Assembly (NCBI GenBank): GCA_027065695.1
Contig: JAMONP010000052.1
Location: forward strand, 186,001 to 250,000
Length of the DNA stretch: 64,000 nt
Direction: 5' to 3'
Source of the DNA: Desulfuromonadales bacterium
GTDB lineage: Bacteria > Desulfobacterota > Desulfuromonadia > Desulfuromonadales > BM103
A program made the translations under genes and the position numbers. The notes below the pieces were generated by a model. That model did no database searches. It worked only from the letters and a program-made list of their open reading frames with translations, and was not told where the DNA came from. Shown here piece after piece: positions 1,547 to 9,712 of this stretch (positions are counted from its first letter, which is position 1; the number at the start of each line of letters is the position of its first letter).

Positions 1547-4141
1547 CTACTCCACAGGGTACTTCAGATAGGTAACTACAGAGAAGTTTGGTACGTCATC
1601 ATAGGTGAATACTGCATAATATTTGGCCGTATTTTTGTCGCCGAAATTATCGTACGTGTAGTTGTCTTTGCCGCCGTAAAGCTTTTGGCCATCATAAGGT
1701 GTGCATGGCACGTGGAACGGATTCTTGACCACGATGACGCCTCCAAAAGCTGTATCATTCGGGTTGTCCCACAGCAGTTTAACCATGTTTTTTTCAAGCA
1801 CAAAACGTAGGTTACTAACCGGGTCAACGCCTTTTCTACGCTTTTTGATATAGTTGAGGACCAGGCTGGGGGGGTGCTGACCATTTCCATCCAGCCACTG
1901 CACTTTTTGCGATTTACAGAAGGTCTTTTCGGATGTGGCATAGAGGAAGAATGAGAGCTTTTCGCCGGCTTCACTGAGACGAACCATCTCGTTGATCGCA
2001 AAAGTATCAAAGACAAAATTCTGCTGCGGATGTGTCTTGAGGGTCTCCACACTGACCTCGTAGCCGACCCTTTCTATCACCTGACGATTTTTGACATTGG
2101 CATAACTCTTTTCATCTTCAAGAGGCTTGACCATTTCGACGTGAAAACGAGTATTGTCATCAGCGCTCACCGTATCCGCATGGAGAATCAGATAGGCCTC
2201 GGAGATAACCGTATTTTCCATATCCGGCATCTGGATCGTATCAAAAGCAATGCAGCCGTACAGACGATCACCTTTGGCATCATAGCCAACATCAAGAACC
2301 GATCTATCCAGACCGGCACGTGAAATGGTTATCGTGGATGAACTTTGCAATTCCAGGCGCGCGTCTGGAAGCGTATAGGATATTTCCAACTTCGGCCGAT
2401 AGGTTAAGCCACTGCTATACTTGCCAAAACCGATATCCCACTGCATCAACTGCGAGGAACGATTCATAGGCAAGGATTTTGGCCCTTCCATTCTGAAGGT
2501 AGCTTTACGGCGTTTGAGTGCTTCTTGCAGCAGTTGGCGCTCTTGTTCAGCAAACACATAAGCATGCCAGATCCCCTGAGAGAGCTGATGTGAACCGGAC
2601 GGTTGGTCGATGTAACCAAGCAGCTTTGCTTGTTTGATATCATCGTAGCTGGAGAGCGTCTCCACTGTACGTTCGTCAATCATCCCGACACGCCATTCAC
2701 CATAGCGTTCCACCTGTACCAGGACCCGATTCATCGGGAAAAACGAGATACGGGCATCAGTGATGATTGCGTGTTCAGGAACAGTCTCCAGGGAAAAGGA
2801 AGTAATACCGTAACAGACCCCTTTGGTCTCGGAAATACCGACAAAAAGTGAGTTGACGCCAAAATGTTCCTTGTTTTTGACTGTTAATTCACCTACATAG
2901 CCAACATCTTCTTTGCGCGGATAAAGAATTTTGGAGAACATGCTGAGTTCAGGATGCGTACGTATACCGACGACCGGAGCGTAGGGTGATTTGATATAAC
3001 GTCTACCGCGCTTGATGACGGCTCGGACAAAGTAGTAATAGTTGGAATTGGGTTCGATCTGACGATCGGTAAAGCTGTGCGAACGAGTCATGCCGATACG
3101 ATTGGATCCCCGGCAGAAGCCGTTAGATTTATCTGAACGGTATATCTCGAAGTAAATGTTCTCCGTGAGCGGGTATTGCCAAGACAAGGTCGTCTCTTTG
3201 GCATTGACATCGGTGGCAATAAAGCTCTCCACTCGCGGCAAACCATCTTTTTTAGCATAGTTGGGTGCCTCACGAAGGGCTTTGCCAAGAGCGGAAATAT
3301 GCTCATGGATATGCTCGGTCATATCTTCCTGGTAGTCAGAGATATTACGTGTGCCCACCTCAACGACCAGTGCCAGGGCTCCCTGGGAATAGTAAAATTC
3401 CCTGCCGCTGCCGGAGATGAGTGCCGTGGGAGGCTTGCCCATATGAACGCCGTATTCACGTCCTGAAACCCTGCGTATTTCCTCAGCCATATTTGCCGCG
3501 AGCACATTTAAATCGGTTGTGCCGACAACATCTTCGTGGATGAAATTGTGTGCTGGGAAAAAGACATTGCCCTGAGAGTGGTAGTCAAGTGCGATGGTAA
3601 TATTGGGATGATCTTCGGCAAAAGCTTTCAGTGCCTGAGTCTCGGGCTCAGAGAATGCCGAGGGTCCCGGGTAGACATTCGAAGAGGTGTTTTTATTGGG
3701 CGTGAAACCGATGGAAAAATTGCGATTCAGATCGACGCCGAAACTGCCATCGGCATTCTGGCGACGGTTTTTTCGCCAGAATGAAAAATGGGTGCGTGAA
3801 TACTCAAATCCATCTGGGTTAGCGCATGGCACCATATAAAAGGTGGCGCGCTCAAGCAGATGATTCAGAAGCGGGTCATATTGAATATGATCAAGGACGT
3901 ATTGCGCAAAAGCAATCGAGAGTTCTATACCTATCCATTCACGAGCATGAATGGTTCCGGTATAAAAAAGCGCCGGTTTACTATCGGCATCTTGCATACC
4001 TTTACTGACCGTGACAGCAATGATATCACGCTCTTCCCAGGTTGTTCCTATGGTCTCGATACGGAACAGGTCAGGATGTTCTTTTGCTGCGGCCTTGAAA
4101 AAATCGATACACTCATCGTATGAGCTATACTGCTGTCTCAC
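1547..4141 (-). CDS. M14 zinc carboxypeptidase with FnIII and DNRLRE-like domains
   Basis: An 864-residue protein starting at GTG 4141, with AAAGGAA just upstream. Residues 1-300 are an M14 metallocarboxypeptidase domain. Zinc ligands H65 and E68 sit in HAREW, the third ligand is H188 in DYHSQG, the substrate-binding DLNRN is at 137-141 and the catalytic glutamate is E261 in VVEVGT. All key residues are intact. A fibronectin type III-like domain follows (about 305-395), then two beta-rich DNRLRE-like segments (about 405-750) and a second FnIII-like end. There is no signal peptide, which is odd for such adhesive domains and suggests a cytoplasmic role or a non-classical export route. It is the last of four tightly spaced genes with an M20 peptidase and two ATP-grasp ligases, so its substrate may be their product. 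Confidence 0.85.
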   Translation of the reverse strand: MRQQYSSYDECIDFFKAAAKEHPDLFRIETIGTTWEERDIIAVTVSKGMQDADSKPALFYTGTIHAREWIGIELSIAFAQYVLDHIQYDPLLNHLLERATFYMVPCANPDGFEYSRTHFSFWRKNRRQNADGSFGVDLNRNFSIGFTPNKNTSSNVYPGPSAFSEPETQALKAFAEDHPNITIALDYHSQGNVFFPAHNFIHEDVVGTTDLNVLAANMAEEIRRVSGREYGVHMGKPPTALISGSGREFYYSQGALALVVEVGTRNISDYQEDMTEHIHEHISALGKALREAPNYAKKDGLPRVESFIATDVNAKETTLSWQYPLTENIYFEIYRSDKSNGFCRGSNRIGMTRSHSFTDRQIEPNSNYYYFVRAVIKRGRRYIKSPYAPVVGIRTHPELSMFSKILYPRKEDVGYVGELTVKNKEHFGVNSLFVGISETKGVCYGITSFSLETVPEHAIITDARISFFPMNRVLVQVERYGEWRVGMIDERTVETLSSYDDIKQAKLLGYIDQPSGSHQLSQGIWHAYVFAEQERQLLQEALKRRKATFRMEGPKSLPMNRSSQLMQWDIGFGKYSSGLTYRPKLEISYTLPDARLELQSSSTITISRAGLDRSVLDVGYDAKGDRLYGCIAFDTIQMPDMENTVISEAYLILHADTVSADDNTRFHVEMVKPLEDEKSYANVKNRQVIERVGYEVSVETLKTHPQQNFVFDTFAINEMVRLSEAGEKLSFFLYATSEKTFCKSQKVQWLDGNGQHPPSLVLNYIKKRRKGVDPVSNLRFVLEKNMVKLLWDNPNDTAFGGVIVVKNPFHVPCTPYDGQKLYGGKDNYTYDNFGDKNTAKYYAVFTYDDVPNFSVVTYLKYPVE

Positions 4142-4167
4142 GTATTTCCTTTAACCTTGATATACAT

Positions 4168-5508
4168 TCAATCCAGAAACGCTTTACGCCACTGGTTAAT
4201 GTTCGCTTTGGGAATAAATTCATAGTCAACCAGCTCTTCAAACGAGCTGACTTCCTTATTATCTACCAGTTCCTTGATGCGTACTGCCGTGTCATCATCC
4301 ATGCCATAGAGCGTAAGAAGCTGTGTCAGCGTCACTGAGGCAAAATCGAAACACTCAGTCCGAGCAATCGGTGAAGACTCTTCATTTTCTTCAGCAGCCA
4401 CCTTCACTTTTTCAGGGAGTTCGCCTTCATCAGCAAGCGGGGCAAGTGGGGCAAGCGCTTCAGGCACATCAGAAAGTTGCGATTCTTCAGTCAATTCCAT
4501 CTCAAGATTGTCGTCTTTGTCTTTAAGCCAGTAAGCACCATCAGTCGAAGGGGTATAAGGCGAAAAGTGGATATGACGCATAGTGCGAAGCAACGAAGCC
4601 GAGATCTTGCCCAGTTCTTCCCATGAGTAGAGTGGCACATGCGGCATCTGGAAACGTCCTTCACTCAAGTCCCACATAATGTACTGACCGATCCAGTCAC
4701 GAATGTATGGAAAAGCCGCGAAGGCCGTTGCACACTCTAGCACATAAGGCTGATCGGTTTTAGCATCGATGGCGATATCGCATGCCCAGTACTCCGCCTT
4801 GGCTGCCTTGGAAGTCTTTACCGCCAGTTCCAGCGCGTTCATGGGAACGTTATCGTAGCTCATCGAACCGCCCTGGGAGGTATTGGTAATCCACTCGCCC
4901 TTGCCCGAATAGCGCCAGAAGGCACAAACCGGTTTGTGACCGATCAGCATGACTCGAAGATCGCCGCTGTCTTTAAGCTCAATGGCGTCCTGAATGTACA
5001 TCGGCAGATACTTCTTCTTGTCAAAAAGGGCCTTGGCCTCTTTTTTGTTATCCACTTTATGGACGAAATAGCCACCGTAATTTGAAGGCCCGTAGGAGCG
5101 CTTCACGATCTTCGGATATTTTGCCGTCTCAAGATATTTATCCCCGGCCTGCTTATCGTAAAAAATTTCTGTTTTCGGCGTGGCAATGCCATATTTATCA
5201 CAAAACAACGTCACATTCTCTTTGGACTTATTCGAAAACTGGGTTTCAAGGGACGGCAGGAAACGCACATTCGGTAATGCTTTAGAGATCTCAACAAAGG
5301 TCTCATAAGCCGTTGCGGGGATATTGCCGATCAGCACATCGATCTTTTTGCGTTTGACCTCTTTGATAAACCGGGCCTTGTCGTTGCCCCAATGGTAGAC
5401 AACCGTTTCAATTTTGTCAGGCCATCCCTTGAGGTTGCTGCTATTAAAAAAACAGAGCACATAATCCAGGTACAGCAAGCCAATTTTCGGCAATTTGGTC
5501 TGACTCAT
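4168..5508 (-). CDS. ATP-grasp ligase with C-terminal helix-hairpin-helix tail
   Basis: A 446-residue protein read from ATG 5508, with AAGGGG about 8 bases upstream; a GTG nine bases earlier is less likely. The N-terminal ~100 residues form a pre-ATP-grasp fold. The ATP-grasp core follows (about 105-300), with the PKIVKRSYGPSNYGGYF nucleotide-binding loop, the TNTSQGGSMSYDN segment and the YVLECATAFAAFP metal-binding strand. This resembles RimK-like amide ligases, which activate a carboxylate as acyl phosphate and join it to an amine. An acidic linker (about 350-385) leads to a C-terminal ComEA-like helix-hairpin-helix (LLTLYGMDDDTAVRIKELV...). That tail is unusual and may bind DNA or a partner protein. 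The substrate is unknown. It lies 12 bases after the first ATP-grasp gene. Confidence 0.75.
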   Translation of the reverse strand: MSQTKLPKIGLLYLDYVLCFFNSSNLKGWPDKIETVVYHWGNDKARFIKEVKRKKIDVLIGNIPATAYETFVEISKALPNVRFLPSLETQFSNKSKENVTLFCDKYGIATPKTEIFYDKQAGDKYLETAKYPKIVKRSYGPSNYGGYFVHKVDNKKEAKALFDKKKYLPMYIQDAIELKDSGDLRVMLIGHKPVCAFWRYSGKGEWITNTSQGGSMSYDNVPMNALELAVKTSKAAKAEYWACDIAIDAKTDQPYVLECATAFAAFPYIRDWIGQYIMWDLSEGRFQMPHVPLYSWEELGKISASLLRTMRHIHFSPYTPSTDGAYWLKDKDDNLEMELTEESQLSDVPEALAPLAPLADEGELPEKVKVAAEENEESSPIARTECFDFASVTLTQLLTLYGMDDDTAVRIKELVDNKEVSSFEELVDYEFIPKANINQWRKAFLD

Positions 5509-5520
5509 TACTTCCACCCC

Positions 5521-6423
5521 TTATTGATTTTTATTAGAAATACGGTCAATCAAGGCAACTATTTTGTCGATTTTTTTGTCATTAAAATCAAGTCCCATCG
5601 TTTCCTGCTCCGGTGTTGCAAAAGCCGGAAGACCATTGATTTCAAGGACAACGTACTCTTCATGTTCAATGTCATAGATAATATCAACACCGGCAATCTC
5701 AAGACCAACCACTGACGCCGCATGGATTGCAAGAGCCACGATCTCGTCATCTGGCTCACGCAGAATCACACTGCCACCGGAGGTGATATTGGTACGCCAG
5801 TCGCGGTTCCCGGCTTTGCGACCGTAACAACCGATATACTCACCATCAACAATATCGATACGGTAATCGGTGAAATCGTTCTTGATAAACCGTTCAAGGT
5901 AAATATGACGCATATCTATCTGATTCAGAAACGGCATCAACATATCAAGAGAGGCACGGTTCTCAAGAAGCGCCATGCCAGCACCACCCCAGCCATCTAT
6001 CGGCTTAAACACCATTTTGCCCCATTCATCCATCTTTGCATAGATCATCTCAGGTTTTTCCCGGTGACCAATAAAAAAATCAGAAGTTTTCACGCCCGCC
6101 TGGCTCAGTATCATGTTAGTACGGAATTTGTCTTCGGTCAGCATGAATGCCTGGGAATTATTCACTGTAGGGATATATGAACCCAAGGTCTCATACATAT
6201 ATAATTGTGCTACCGTCTGCTCACCGGCATTGTAGGAAAAAAACACATCCAGCTCACACATATCAATGCCATTACAGAGAATACCTGCATTATCACCATA
6301 AGCAAACCGCAGATCAAGACCTGTTATCGGTTCAATTTCACGTTCCCGGAGACGATCCACAAGCTTCTGCTGAACGACATCGCCACCACCGTTGGCATAC
6401 ATCCAGATACCTGCTCTTCTCAT
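5521..6423 (-). CDS. RimK-like ATP-grasp amide ligase
   Basis: A 300-residue protein with an ATP-grasp fold close to RimK/GshB-type ligases. The nucleotide loop KPIDGWGGAGM is near residue 140, the phosphate-proximal segment is WRTNITSGGSV near 210, and the metal-binding strand VVLEINGLPAFA is near 265, with the expected Glu and Asn. It should form an amide bond from a carboxylate and an amine using ATP. The start ATG at 6423 lies 3 bases after the M20 peptidase stop, and its ribosome site is inside that gene's end, so translation is probably coupled. The two ATP-grasp proteins of this operon differ enough to be separate functions, not a recent duplication. Confidence 0.8.
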   Translation of the reverse strand: MRRAGIWMYANGGGDVVQQKLVDRLREREIEPITGLDLRFAYGDNAGILCNGIDMCELDVFFSYNAGEQTVAQLYMYETLGSYIPTVNNSQAFMLTEDKFRTNMILSQAGVKTSDFFIGHREKPEMIYAKMDEWGKMVFKPIDGWGGAGMALLENRASLDMLMPFLNQIDMRHIYLERFIKNDFTDYRIDIVDGEYIGCYGRKAGNRDWRTNITSGGSVILREPDDEIVALAIHAASVVGLEIAGVDIIYDIEHEEYVVLEINGLPAFATPEQETMGLDFNDKKIDKIVALIDRISNKNQ

Positions 6424-6426
6424 ACC

Positions 6427-7536
6427 TTACTCCCTGAAATCATGATGTCTGACAAAATGTTTCAGCAGTGTCGTCGTGAGCTTAATGCGCTCGGCAAAAC
6501 TGCTTTTACGGGCACGTTCGTACACCGTATGGTCGCCGTCGCCGAAAGGGCCGAAACCATCCAAGGTAATAACATTGTGTGAACTGAGAATATTCGCATC
6601 ACTTACACCGCCGCGCTCTTCAGTCTGTAGTTTTTGACCGCTGATGCGTTCTATATCTGCGACAAACTGTTGTGTTGCCGGTGAATTTTGCATTACGTCA
6701 CGCTGGATACCACCGCCGAGGACCGCTGTGGTTCCGTGGATATAACTCCTGGCAACAATATCGTCAATTGCCGCAAGCACGCGGTCACGCTCTTCGGCCA
6801 CCTTATAGCGCAACTCAAACAGCAAGTGAGCTTTAGGTGAGATCGTGTTTGCCCCAAGGCCACCTTCCATTTTACCAACATTGACGGTGGTTCCCCGGGA
6901 AAGGTCTGTCAGTGCTACCAGTGCTTGCAACTTGTAAGAGGCTTCGAGATTGGCGTCAATACCGTCAGCATAATGGTTGCCAGCATGCTCGGCCTGGCCT
7001 TCGATATTGATGGTATAGGTGCCGACACCCTTGCGACCGCTGACCACTTCCAGATTCGGCCCGGCGGCTTCGAAGACAAGACAGTAATCGTAGTCCTTTG
7101 CCAGTTCTATGCTGAGATATTTAGAATCATCGCTACCAGTTTCTTCATCGCTGACCAACAGCACGTCAATATTGGCGATCTCAATGCCCTCACGATGCAG
7201 GTTGCGCAGCGATTCGAGCGCAACGATGTTGCCCCCTTTCATATCACACGCACCAGGACCAAATATCCATTCGTCATCTTCTTCGTAATGATCAAATGTC
7301 TTCGGTGGGAACACCGTATCAAGGTGGCCCAAAAGAAGAACCTTTTTGCCAACCTTACAACACTTCGAACGGTAGTAACGATGTTCACCGATCAACTCAC
7401 GCTCATAACGGATAACCTCATAGCCGAGCGGAGCCAGCCATTCATCAAATAGCTCACCGACAGCATCAACCCCAACCTTGTTCTTGGTGTAGGAATTGAT
7501 GCGCATAATTTGCTCTAAGTCTCTGAAGTAATCCAT
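6427..7536 (-). CDS. M20 family metallopeptidase (carboxypeptidase G2-like)
   Basis: A 369-residue M20 di-zinc hydrolase. First-zinc His and catalytic Asp are in LLGHLDTVF (near residue 70). The bridging Asp is in GPGACDMKGG, the catalytic Glu pair in SDEETGS, and the C-terminal zinc His in FGPFGDGDHTVYE. The dimerisation domain carries GQAEHAGN. The layout matches glutamate carboxypeptidase/CPG2-type enzymes, which remove a C-terminal amino acid, often Glu, from amide-linked substrates. It is the first gene of the operon with two amide ligases and an M14 carboxypeptidase. No strong ribosome site is visible before the ATG. Confidence 0.85.
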   Translation of the reverse strand: MDYFRDLEQIMRINSYTKNKVGVDAVGELFDEWLAPLGYEVIRYERELIGEHRYYRSKCCKVGKKVLLLGHLDTVFPPKTFDHYEEDDEWIFGPGACDMKGGNIVALESLRNLHREGIEIANIDVLLVSDEETGSDDSKYLSIELAKDYDYCLVFEAAGPNLEVVSGRKGVGTYTINIEGQAEHAGNHYADGIDANLEASYKLQALVALTDLSRGTTVNVGKMEGGLGANTISPKAHLLFELRYKVAEERDRVLAAIDDIVARSYIHGTTAVLGGGIQRDVMQNSPATQQFVADIERISGQKLQTEERGGVSDANILSSHNVITLDGFGPFGDGDHTVYERARKSSFAERIKLTTTLLKHFVRHHDFRE

Positions 7537-7792: not shown

Positions 7793-9712
7793 GTGGCACG
7801 TTTACCCGTAATCGTTGGATTTGGAGGGATCAATCCTGCAGGCAGAAGTTCAGCTCACCACGGTTATCGCCGTATGGTGATTGACCGACTGGACCAAGAA
7901 CCCGCACAACAGACCTATGCCGCCCTTGCTCAAGTAATGGGGCTGACCCGTGATGACAACGGGCAAACCGTTGATGGCGACGGCACGGTGCTCACGCAGG
8001 CGGCGATCACAGAAAAATATGCATCCTATATCAAGGACAATACCTTGATTCGTCGTTTGGAGAATAATCTGTTTGACCGGGATTTTATTCCGGAGAACAA
8101 AACGGCTATGCTCACAGCCTCACCGGGACAACCAATCATTTTCACTCTCAAACGCAAGCAGCTCCCCACTATCATCCCTGAGAATTGGCAGGTGTCGGAT
8201 CTGGACAAGAACAATGTCAAGATTGAAGTTCAGAAGAGTATGGACGTGTTTCTGCCCAGTACTCGCTCCTCAAAGGTGCAGAGTGCCGGACAACTACCAA
8301 CCGGTTTTGACCCAGCAAAGCTCTACCAGTCACGAAGCCATCCACGCGGCCTGCAAATGACCATCTATGGAGCTTCAGATGCAGTGCAGTCTGTCGGCAT
8401 TGACTGGGAAATAATTCGCTCGGCTGTCGCCCCGGACAAAATCGGGGTTCTCTCCGGAAGTGCCATGGGACAACTTGATTATGATGGCTCAGGCGGTATG
8501 CTGCAGGCTCAACTACTAGGCAAACGCGTCAGTGCCAAACAGTTGCCATTAGGTCTGGTGGAGATGCCCGCCGACTTTATCAATGCCTATATTCTCGGCA
8601 GTGTCGGTGCCACCGGCTGTAATGTCGGTGCCTGCGCTACCTTTATGTACAATCTGCAGGTAGCGAGCCAGGACATCCAGAGCGGTCGCCGACGTGTGGT
8701 CGTGGTCGGCACCAGCGAAGCACCGATAACTCCTGAAATCATCGAAGGCTACCGTACTATGGGCGCTCTGGCCGAAGACGACAAATTACTCTCTCTGGAT
8801 TCGGATCGTGATACGCCCGACTTCCAGCGTGCCTCCAGACCATTCTCAGACAACTGCGGGTTCACCCTTTCAGAGTCCTCACAGTTTTTTGTCCTTTTCG
8901 ACGACGAACTGGCTATGGAACTCGGCGCTAACATTTACGGCTCGGTTGCCGATATCTTTATCAATGCAGATGGTTATAAAAAATCTATACCCGGACCAGG
9001 AGTGGGCAACTATATCACCGTCGGCAAAGCCGCTGCAGTAATCAAGGCAATCATCGGTGAAGAAGGGTTGAAAAGAAAAAGCTATGTCCATGCTCACGGC
9101 ACCAGCACCCCGCAGAACCGGGTGACCGAGTCTCATATTATTAACGAAATAGCCAAAGTGAACGGTATCGACCAGTGGACTGTCGCTGCAGTGAAATGTT
9201 ATCTGGGACACTCTCTGGGGGTTTCTGCCGGCGATCAACTGATGGCTTCCCTGGGCACCTGGAAATATGGCCTGATTCCAGGTATCGTCACCAGCGACCA
9301 TATGGCAGACGACGTCCACGACAGCAACCTGCGCTTTATCCTCGATCACGATGAAGTAGGCGTCACCGGCATGGATGCTGTACTGATGAACGCTAAAGGT
9401 TTCGGCGGCAACAATGCCACTGGCGCAATTTTATCACCACAGGTCACCAAGGAATTGCTGGAGAACAAATACGGTCGCCAGCGTATGAGTGAATATCGCA
9501 ACTGCAATCAGTCTGTAGCCGAAGCTGCGGATTTATACGACTGTGAGACAACCGCTGGCAGGACAACCCCGATCTATCGTTTCGACCATAATGTAGTTGC
9601 TGGAGAAGATCTTGTGATTACCGAAAGTGAACTTAAAATACCAGGTTATTCCCGTGCTATAGACCTGAGAGTGAAAAACCCATATACCGATATGGTACTA
9701 GAAGCCCCTTAG
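7793..9712 (+). CDS. fabY: FabY-type beta-ketoacyl synthase
   Basis: A 639-residue protein starting at GTG 7793 with AAGGAG at 7781-7786. It begins RLPVIVGFGG, as in the long ketoacyl synthases of the Pseudomonas FabY type (about 634 residues). The condensing-enzyme triad is intact: Cys281 in GACAT, His435 in HAHGTSTP and His473 in LGHSLG. FabY condenses acetyl-CoA with malonyl-ACP and can replace FabH as the starter enzyme of fatty acid synthesis. Whether this organism also has FabH cannot be seen here. The residues before the catalytic core (about 1-200) are longer than in FabB/FabF, as expected. Its last four bases overlap the end of the convergent gene. Confidence 0.7.
   Translation: MARLPVIVGFGGINPAGRSSAHHGYRRMVIDRLDQEPAQQTYAALAQVMGLTRDDNGQTVDGDGTVLTQAAITEKYASYIKDNTLIRRLENNLFDRDFIPENKTAMLTASPGQPIIFTLKRKQLPTIIPENWQVSDLDKNNVKIEVQKSMDVFLPSTRSSKVQSAGQLPTGFDPAKLYQSRSHPRGLQMTIYGASDAVQSVGIDWEIIRSAVAPDKIGVLSGSAMGQLDYDGSGGMLQAQLLGKRVSAKQLPLGLVEMPADFINAYILGSVGATGCNVGACATFMYNLQVASQDIQSGRRRVVVVGTSEAPITPEIIEGYRTMGALAEDDKLLSLDSDRDTPDFQRASRPFSDNCGFTLSESSQFFVLFDDELAMELGANIYGSVADIFINADGYKKSIPGPGVGNYITVGKAAAVIKAIIGEEGLKRKSYVHAHGTSTPQNRVTESHIINEIAKVNGIDQWTVAAVKCYLGHSLGVSAGDQLMASLGTWKYGLIPGIVTSDHMADDVHDSNLRFILDHDEVGVTGMDAVLMNAKGFGGNNATGAILSPQVTKELLENKYGRQRMSEYRNCNQSVAEAADLYDCETTAGRTTPIYRFDHNVVAGEDLVITESELKIPGYSRAIDLRVKNPYTDMVLEAP

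Follow-up and report, generated by a model that had tools for sequence, protein, structure and literature searches.

Co-occurrence and conservation of a four-gene unit pairing two ATP-grasp proteins with M20 and M14 metallopeptidases

A four-gene unit and its distribution

The analysis of a 64,000-nucleotide stretch of a Desulfuromonadales genome (contig JAMONP010000052.1, positions 186,001 to 250,000; hereafter the window) centers on four consecutive minus-strand genes at 1547-7536, which encode an M20 metallopeptidase, two ATP-grasp proteins (GRASP300 and GRASP449), and an M14 carboxypeptidase. Comparison of these sequences across genomes strongly supports the conclusion that the four genes form a real functional unit, gained and lost together. 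They are transcribed in the order M20 (369 amino acids [aa]; 6427-7536), GRASP300 (300 aa; 5521-6423), GRASP449 (4168-5508 from its ATG), and M14 (864 aa; 1547-4141). The identities proposed in a preliminary description of the window were borne out by Pfam matches above cut-off, namely M20 and M20_dimer for the first gene, RimK-like ATP-grasp for both GRASP300, a RimK-type ligase, and GRASP449, a diverged RimK/LysX-type protein with a C-terminal extension, and M14 for the last gene. The single-strand layout with gaps of 3, 12, and 26 bases given there likewise agrees with the coordinates of the open reading frames (ORFs), provided that GRASP449 starts at the ATG. An alternative in-frame GTG at 5517 would yield 449 aa; the ATG is preferred because homologues begin near it, and the GRASP449 residue numbers used here run from the GTG.

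Linkage of the four genes was assessed by a contig-wide search with a GRASP449 alignment, which returned 148 relatives, the best 80 of which were analyzed as loci (L057, L060, L061, and L063 being treated as the same contigs as L009, L011, L012, and L014). GRASP449 served as the bait, and its presence in these loci is therefore by design. At least 2300 bases before and at least 1500 bases after GRASP449 are available in 62 of the 80 loci, and all four genes were found in 59 of these 62, with M20 co-directional in 34 of the complete loci and divergent in 25. Among the 18 loci without enough flank, all four genes were still visible in 8. The exceptions are L081 and L087, where no M14 gene lies nearby, and L033, where M14 and M20 are fragmented and GRASP300 is missing; the broken versions in L033 and in L028, whose GRASP300 is in two pieces, may be sequencing errors or decay. 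The hosts of these best 80 loci belong to Campylobacterota (Sulfurimonas, Arcobacter, Sulfurovum, Sulfurospirillum, and others), Gammaproteobacteria (Pseudoalteromonas, Alteromonas, Thiomicrorhabdus, Veronia, and others), and Desulfuromonadales. The preliminary description had held that a four-gene order conserved across distant genomes would support a pathway and that genes lying mostly apart in relatives would refute it; with 59 of 62 loci complete across these three groups, the order is conserved and the genes do not lie mostly apart.

The same pattern emerged from 298 genomes of Campylobacteria, the class of G522 (L039, Sulfurospirillum arcachonense, chosen as a holder and counted), which were compared by using profiles for GRASP449, M14, and GRASP300 at differing cut-offs (1e-60, 1e-30, and 1e-40). 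GRASP449 was found in 30 genomes, M14 in 31, and GRASP300 in 30, with both ligases and M14 together in 29, a subset in 3 (G744 without GRASP300, G782 with M14 only, and G632 with GRASP300 only), and none in 266. Of the 29 complete genomes, 26 have the three genes side by side. In G536 and G656, GRASP449 shares a contig with GRASP300 and M14 but at a distance of over 700 kb, and in G775 a different contig carries the M14 gene; the presence of the genes despite this separation argues for a shared function rather than mere neighborhood. In the gammaproteobacterial order around G523, GRASP449 was detected in 9 of 295 genomes (G523 counted).

Within the order of the window, 7 of 136 genomes, counting the window's own, have a close GRASP300, the other six being 53-60% identical and, up to the ends of their contigs, arranged in the same gene order, while no GRASP300 was found at E ≤ 1e-30 in the other 10 genomes of the genus. 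In a 395-genome sample of the phylum, evidently without those six holders, a full-length GRASP449 occurs in the window's own genome only, and the other 25 matches are partial, at no more than 100.6 bits. The four families show correlated pairwise distances (Mantel r 0.61-0.89, with 0 of 500 permutations as high; 56 rows, the window plus 55 loci). When the four proteins were joined and a quick tree was built without bootstrap, the window grouped with Thiomicrorhabdus heinhorstiae and three Campylobacterota rows (five rows in all; Shimodaira-Hasegawa-like approximate likelihood ratio test [SH-aLRT] 98) and not with the two Geopsychrobacteraceae rows, which are long branches. This placement, together with the absence of the operon from the rest of the genus, suggests that the window's genome gained it horizontally. 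No clean empty site emerged from comparison within the genus, since the DUF423 and ketoacyl synthase genes that adjoin the operon in the window are found in 7 and 2 of 11 genomes, respectively (the window's included), without a shared order.

Two individual cases were also recorded. G782 encodes a full-length M14 of the operon family (G782:C7:99090-101669; 1250 bits), although neither ligase passed its cut-off there. In Photobacterium sp. DA100 (L115), all four genes reside, in the divergent layout, on a 2.1-Mb replicon recorded as plasmid pDA100.

Active-site features of the four proteins

Residue conservation was counted over ORFs of at least 820 (M14), 390 (GRASP449), 285 (GRASP300), and 345 aa (M20), one per locus, drawn from the best 80 of the 148 loci and the window, with many rows being close relatives. 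Judged by alignment, GRASP300 has the expected RimK-type active-site residues, with K140, E177, D247, E261, and N263 invariant in 72 of 72 sequences; D247, E261, and N263 correspond to the magnesium-binding residues of ATP-grasp enzymes. Its best match in the Protein Data Bank (PDB) is RimK (5zct, 1.2e-20). The preliminary description had named as refuting evidence a ligase that is clearly RimK acting on ribosomal protein S6, and neither ligase scores as such: GRASP300 (63.1 bits) and GRASP449 (21.2 bits) both miss the NCBIfam equivalog cut-off for the S6 ligase (331 bits), and neither reaches any other NCBIfam cut-off listed. A second copy of the 300-aa ligase was seen in L025 (8483-10387) and L048 (9041-15164), at 54% and 50% identity to the window's GRASP300; the extra copy precedes GRASP300 in one locus and follows the M14 gene in the other.

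GRASP449 departs from its relatives at the metal site. All 54 GRASP449 rows match PF08443 at E ≤ 0.01, and the nearest PDB sequence relatives are LysX/ArgX (3vpd, 4.2e-12). The predicted model (pLDDT 81.7) gives Z scores of 21-22 to ArgX, LysX, and RimK, with Z 22.1 and a root mean square deviation (rmsd) of 3.2-3.4 over 265-268 residues against ArgX and RimK. Where ATP-grasp relatives read E-x-N, an E-C-A tripeptide (residues 261-263; 4729-4737, minus strand) is found in 79 of 79 sequences, such that D247 and E261 are retained throughout and the metal-binding Asn is replaced by Ala in every case. The E-x-N motif is kept in 19 of 19 outgroup RimK-like relatives from the phylum sample, these being the ones among its 25 other matches that came with loci, and in the same alignment the stretch round the glycine-rich loop is two residues longer in GRASP449 than in the 19 relatives. 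This alignment-based loss of a metal ligand is new with respect to the preliminary description and makes it uncertain that both ligases work. GRASP449 is under strong constraint, since K139, D186, R188, R202, T211, N212, D247, and E261 are invariant and G217 is kept in 78 of 79 sequences. A helix-hairpin-helix-like C-terminal helical domain (residues 396-449; 4171-4332, minus strand) is predicted with block pLDDT of 86-96 over its helices; HHH_5 and HHH_3 were matched in 23 and 17 of 54 homologues, respectively (Pfam, E ≤ 0.01), while the window's GRASP449 itself gives no Pfam helix-hairpin-helix match. RimK-like proteins from several families of the window's phylum (L096-L114), many of them about 260 aa long, are 26-34% identical to GRASP449 and keep E-x-N.

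The catalytic domain of the M14 protein spans residues 1-297 (3251-4141, minus strand), as delimited by Pfam, an alignment to CPA4, and the model fold, which gives Z scores of 33.7-35.0 to CPO, CPT, CPA4, and CPB. H65, R67, E68, R123, N139, R140, H188, and E261 are present in 62 of 62 sequences, and by the roles of their counterparts in carboxypeptidase A (CPA) they supply the complete set of zinc ligands (HxxE plus His), the carboxylate site (Arg and Asn-Arg), and the catalytic Glu. In the ungapped CPA4 alignment, Arg247 (codon 3401-3403, minus strand) corresponds to CPA Ile255 at the base of the S1' pocket, and 61 of the 62 sequences have Arg at this position while the remaining one has Lys. 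Residue 255 helps set specificity in the A/B subfamily, where Arg255 of CPO goes with acidic C-termini (PMC9925722), and CPO is described as cleaving acidic C-termini (PMC6214572). The basic S1' residue of the operon M14, which the preliminary description had not seen, is on alignment grounds a possible CPO-like mark of acidic specificity. At 1e-20, an M14 protein occurs in 4 of 198 genomes of the phylum sample, one of which is the window's own; of the other three, two have Ile instead of the Arg as well as hydrophobic leader-like starts, and in the third, which also lacks the Arg, the alignment is too poor for a judgment. Across the 62 operon M14 sequences, a simple hydropathy scan detected no strongly hydrophobic start (the mean over 12 residues peaks at 1.04). 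The C-terminal beta-rich part (residues 298-864; 1550-3250, minus strand) contains fn3-like and DNRLRE-like stretches, and of the "FnIII/DNRLRE form" of the preliminary description, fn3 is just under its cut-off in the window protein and DNRLRE reaches 27.2 versus 34 bits there, although DNRLRE matches 43 of 44 M14 homologues at E ≤ 0.01.

The best solved relative of the M20 protein is carboxypeptidase G2 (CPG2; E 6.8e-36, residues 3-357). H71, D73, D98, E131, E132, E156, and H336 are present in 69 of 69 sequences and, by the roles of their CPG2 counterparts, make up the dinuclear metal site and the catalytic Glu. The NCBIfam cut-offs were missed both for the glutamate carboxypeptidase PRK06133 (162.3 versus 349 bits) and for the best model, PRK07338 (203.9 versus 357 bits). 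LysW-lysine hydrolase, an M20 enzyme, is a weak relative.

Genomic surroundings

In the window, a DUF423 gene lies 8 bases past the M14 gene and is followed 13 bases on by a GreA/GreB C-terminal-like gene (minus strand, 665-1538), and this close spacing makes a six-gene transcript possible. Queries with the DUF423 and GreA/GreB-like proteins were matched in 0 of 6 and 0 of 80 operon loci searched, so both appear to be local neighbors. Divergently upstream, an unusual 639-aa ketoacyl-synthase-like protein (7793-9712) is encoded, which within the genus is shared with G012 (84% identity).

Across lineages, no fifth gene at a fixed place was found among the 25 largest neighbor clusters. The two largest, of 30 and 18 loci, show scattered distances and both strands; by eye, we take the former to be sensor- or kinase-like and the latter to comprise ABC-type ATPases, UvrA-like, that may include transporter subunits. 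Neighbors that are steadily placed and lineage specific are, again by eye, presumably trmD with rplS (15 loci), mutM (10), and argG (9). The earlier statement that no carrier is adjacent agrees with the inspected clusters, none of which shows a recurring carrier or precursor; a LysW-like carrier was not noticed among the recurring neighbors, which were viewed without a LysW model. The unit's own peptidases are M14 and M20, where RimABK has a RimB-type aspartic protease.

A role in anti-phage defense was rejected, as the four proteins matched 0 PADLOC families (E ≤ 0.01) and the steady within-lineage position also argues against it. Phage cargo was rejected as well, GRASP449, the sole protein searched there, having no match in phage records. 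Weak PHROG matches were obtained for M14, M20, and GRASP300, with GRASP300 matching (1.4e-14) a phage family annotated as "ribosomal protein S6 glutaminyl transferase". No description of the gene set was found in the open-license literature searched; a 2009 survey, reportedly of ATP-grasp amidoligase neighborhoods, could mention it.

A possible cycle of acidic residues and its alternatives

The reading that we favor, tentatively and as something short of probable, is that the four genes make up a self-contained module by which acidic amino acids are put onto a cytosolic acceptor and taken off again, in the manner of RimK and RimB. In such a cycle, GRASP300 would couple ATP use to the addition of Glu (or Asp) at the acceptor's carboxyl end, and GRASP449 would work alongside, whether as a partner that positions or recognizes the acceptor or as a ligase whose metal binding is altered. 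M14 would take off the added acidic residues, and M20, related to the glutamate-releasing CPG2, would remove or recycle either the final residue or the short peptides set free; the acceptor would be encoded elsewhere or would be a metabolite. This cycle is proposed because two peptidases that appear capable of trimming C-termini, one with a possible mark of acidic specificity, adjoin a RimK-type ligase. Also in its favor are the linkage and correlated distances of the four families, the lack of a strongly hydrophobic M14 start, and the lack, in the inspected clusters, of a fifth gene or precursor at a fixed place. In bacteria, RimK/RimB sets a precedent for poly-Glu handling by a ligase and a protease: RimK adds Glu to S6, and RimB takes it off (PMC11957791). 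Both a protein acceptor and a small-molecule product are possible. The preliminary description had proposed that the set builds and then trims an amide-linked compound; its pairing of two ligase-family proteins with two peptidases proved to be a conserved unit, whereas the building and trimming stay inferred and the working state of the second ligase is uncertain. A more elaborate version, which we consider doubtful, would make the unit a bacterial counterpart of the tubulin code based on reversible C-terminal glutamylation, in which one ligase writes, the catalytically diverged helix-hairpin-helix ligase selects the target (perhaps one located on nucleic acid or the ribosome), and the two zinc carboxypeptidases erase in two steps.

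Several observations weigh against the acidic-residue cycle. Glu248, at CPA position 256 beside Arg247, is present in 62 of 62 M14 sequences and could pair with that Arg, and the equivalent of CPA Tyr248 is Tyr in 0 of 62 (His, Lys, Gln, Asn, Arg, Ser, Ile, or Ala instead). A basic S1' residue is also no proof of deglutamylation, since the bacterial enzyme BcCCP has Lys at 256, yet it showed no deglutamylase activity on a furylacryloyl-Glu substrate (PMC3940198). The control for residue 255 is small because just the 4 of 198 phylum-sample genomes mentioned above, including the window's own, have an M14 protein. GRASP449 may be catalytically dead, which would leave one ligase. In M20, the residue aligned with CPG2 Lys208 is Glu163 (Glu in 62, Asn in 4, Asp in 2, and Gln in 1 of 69 sequences); Lys208 contacts the substrate glutamate in CPG2, and this alignment makes the Glu specificity of M20 doubtful. 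More generally, the substrate, the amino acid used, the activity of GRASP449, and the order of the steps are all inferred from sequence.

It is quite possible, without being probable, that the ligases instead build a small free peptide-like metabolite (an osmolyte, storage, or stress compound) that both peptidases degrade when it is unneeded. The N-acetylglutaminylglutamine amide system pairs ligases with a peptidase, and the ligase and peptidase homologies fit such a product as they fit the acidic-residue cycle. The M14 proteins have no signal-peptide-like start, no protein target is linked to the unit, and many of the host genera are marine or vent taxa. However, the large conserved beta-rich part of M14 and the helix-hairpin-helix tail of GRASP449 homologues would be unexpected for small-molecule enzymes. 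A search of the osmolyte literature found nothing specific.

A graspetide-like route, with ligases modifying a ribosomal precursor peptide and peptidases maturing the product, is very unlikely. ATP-grasp ligases do act in this way in graspetides (PMC8939145), and diverse precursors could escape notice, but clustering of the 2508 small ORFs (18-110 aa) lying no more than 1.5 kb away left each of the 14 largest clusters confined to a single lineage, with 0 of 14 spanning lineages. The sole cluster with an ORF of the window has three members, and M14, M20, and carboxypeptidase are absent from the graspetide survey's main text (PMC8939145). RimK-like modification of ribosomal protein S6 is more improbable still. 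Among solved structures, RimK is closest to GRASP300, and the operon follows trmD and rplS (identified by eye) in one lineage of 15 loci; it is placed elsewhere in other lineages, however, both ligases are far under the S6-ligase cut-off, and the S6 proteins of six holders share no Glu-Glu end (e.g., KKAN, RENKE, TSEA; eight of nine S6 genes were read, six of them from holders, with that of G523 [L127] left out). That four unrelated genes merely share a transcript is scarcely credible: the minus-strand DUF423 and GreA-like neighbors in the window do look incidental, but for the four genes themselves, this idea is refuted in practice by the co-occurrence across 298 genomes, the conservation in three phyla, and the split layouts.

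Comparison with known systems places the unit near several of them. RimABK of Pseudomonas likewise combines a RimK-type ATP-grasp ligase with a Glu-removing peptidase and is an accessory element whose distribution is unlike that of its hosts; it uses a retropepsin-like aspartic protease, one ligase, and S6 as the target, whereas the operon has two zinc peptidases and a second, diverged ligase (PMC11957791). In the eukaryotic TTLL/CCP system, a ligase adds acidic C-terminal residues and an M14 carboxypeptidase removes them (CCP in PMC6214572), while the operon M14 was compared with, and matches, CPA/CPB/CPT/CPO. CPO shares Arg at 255 (PMC9925722), and the operon M14 model superimposes on 5mrv with Z 33.7 and rmsd 2.6 over 286 residues; identity is 23%, CPO is a human secretory-pathway enzyme (PMC6214572), and its solved chain of 355 residues has no counterpart of the long C-terminal part of the operon M14. 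BcCCP is a bacterial M14 enzyme with a basic S1' residue and proposed acidic-substrate binding, but this residue, Lys330, corresponds to CPA Asp256 rather than to 255 (PMC3940198). LysX/ArgX of the LysW pathway are the nearest PDB relatives of GRASP449, and an M20 hydrolase of that pathway is weakly related to the operon M20; GRASP449 differs in its lost metal ligand, and no LysW-like gene was noticed among the recurring neighbors viewed as above. CPG2, the best solved relative of the operon M20, differs at Lys208, which aligns with Glu163 in the operon protein.

Because several holders are named strains (Sulfurospirillum arcachonense DSM 9755, Pseudoalteromonas luteoviolacea, and Thiomicrorhabdus heinhorstiae HH1), a direct search for the acceptor is feasible. 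GRASP449 is a naturally occurring ATP-grasp paralogue that lacks a metal ligand and is nevertheless strictly retained beside a complete partner, GRASP300, and through it the role of such pseudo-ligases can be tested. As tightly co-inherited, likely writers and erasers of amino-acid additions, the four proteins would represent a second, independently assembled ligase/peptidase cycle beside RimK/RimB, present in three bacterial phyla.

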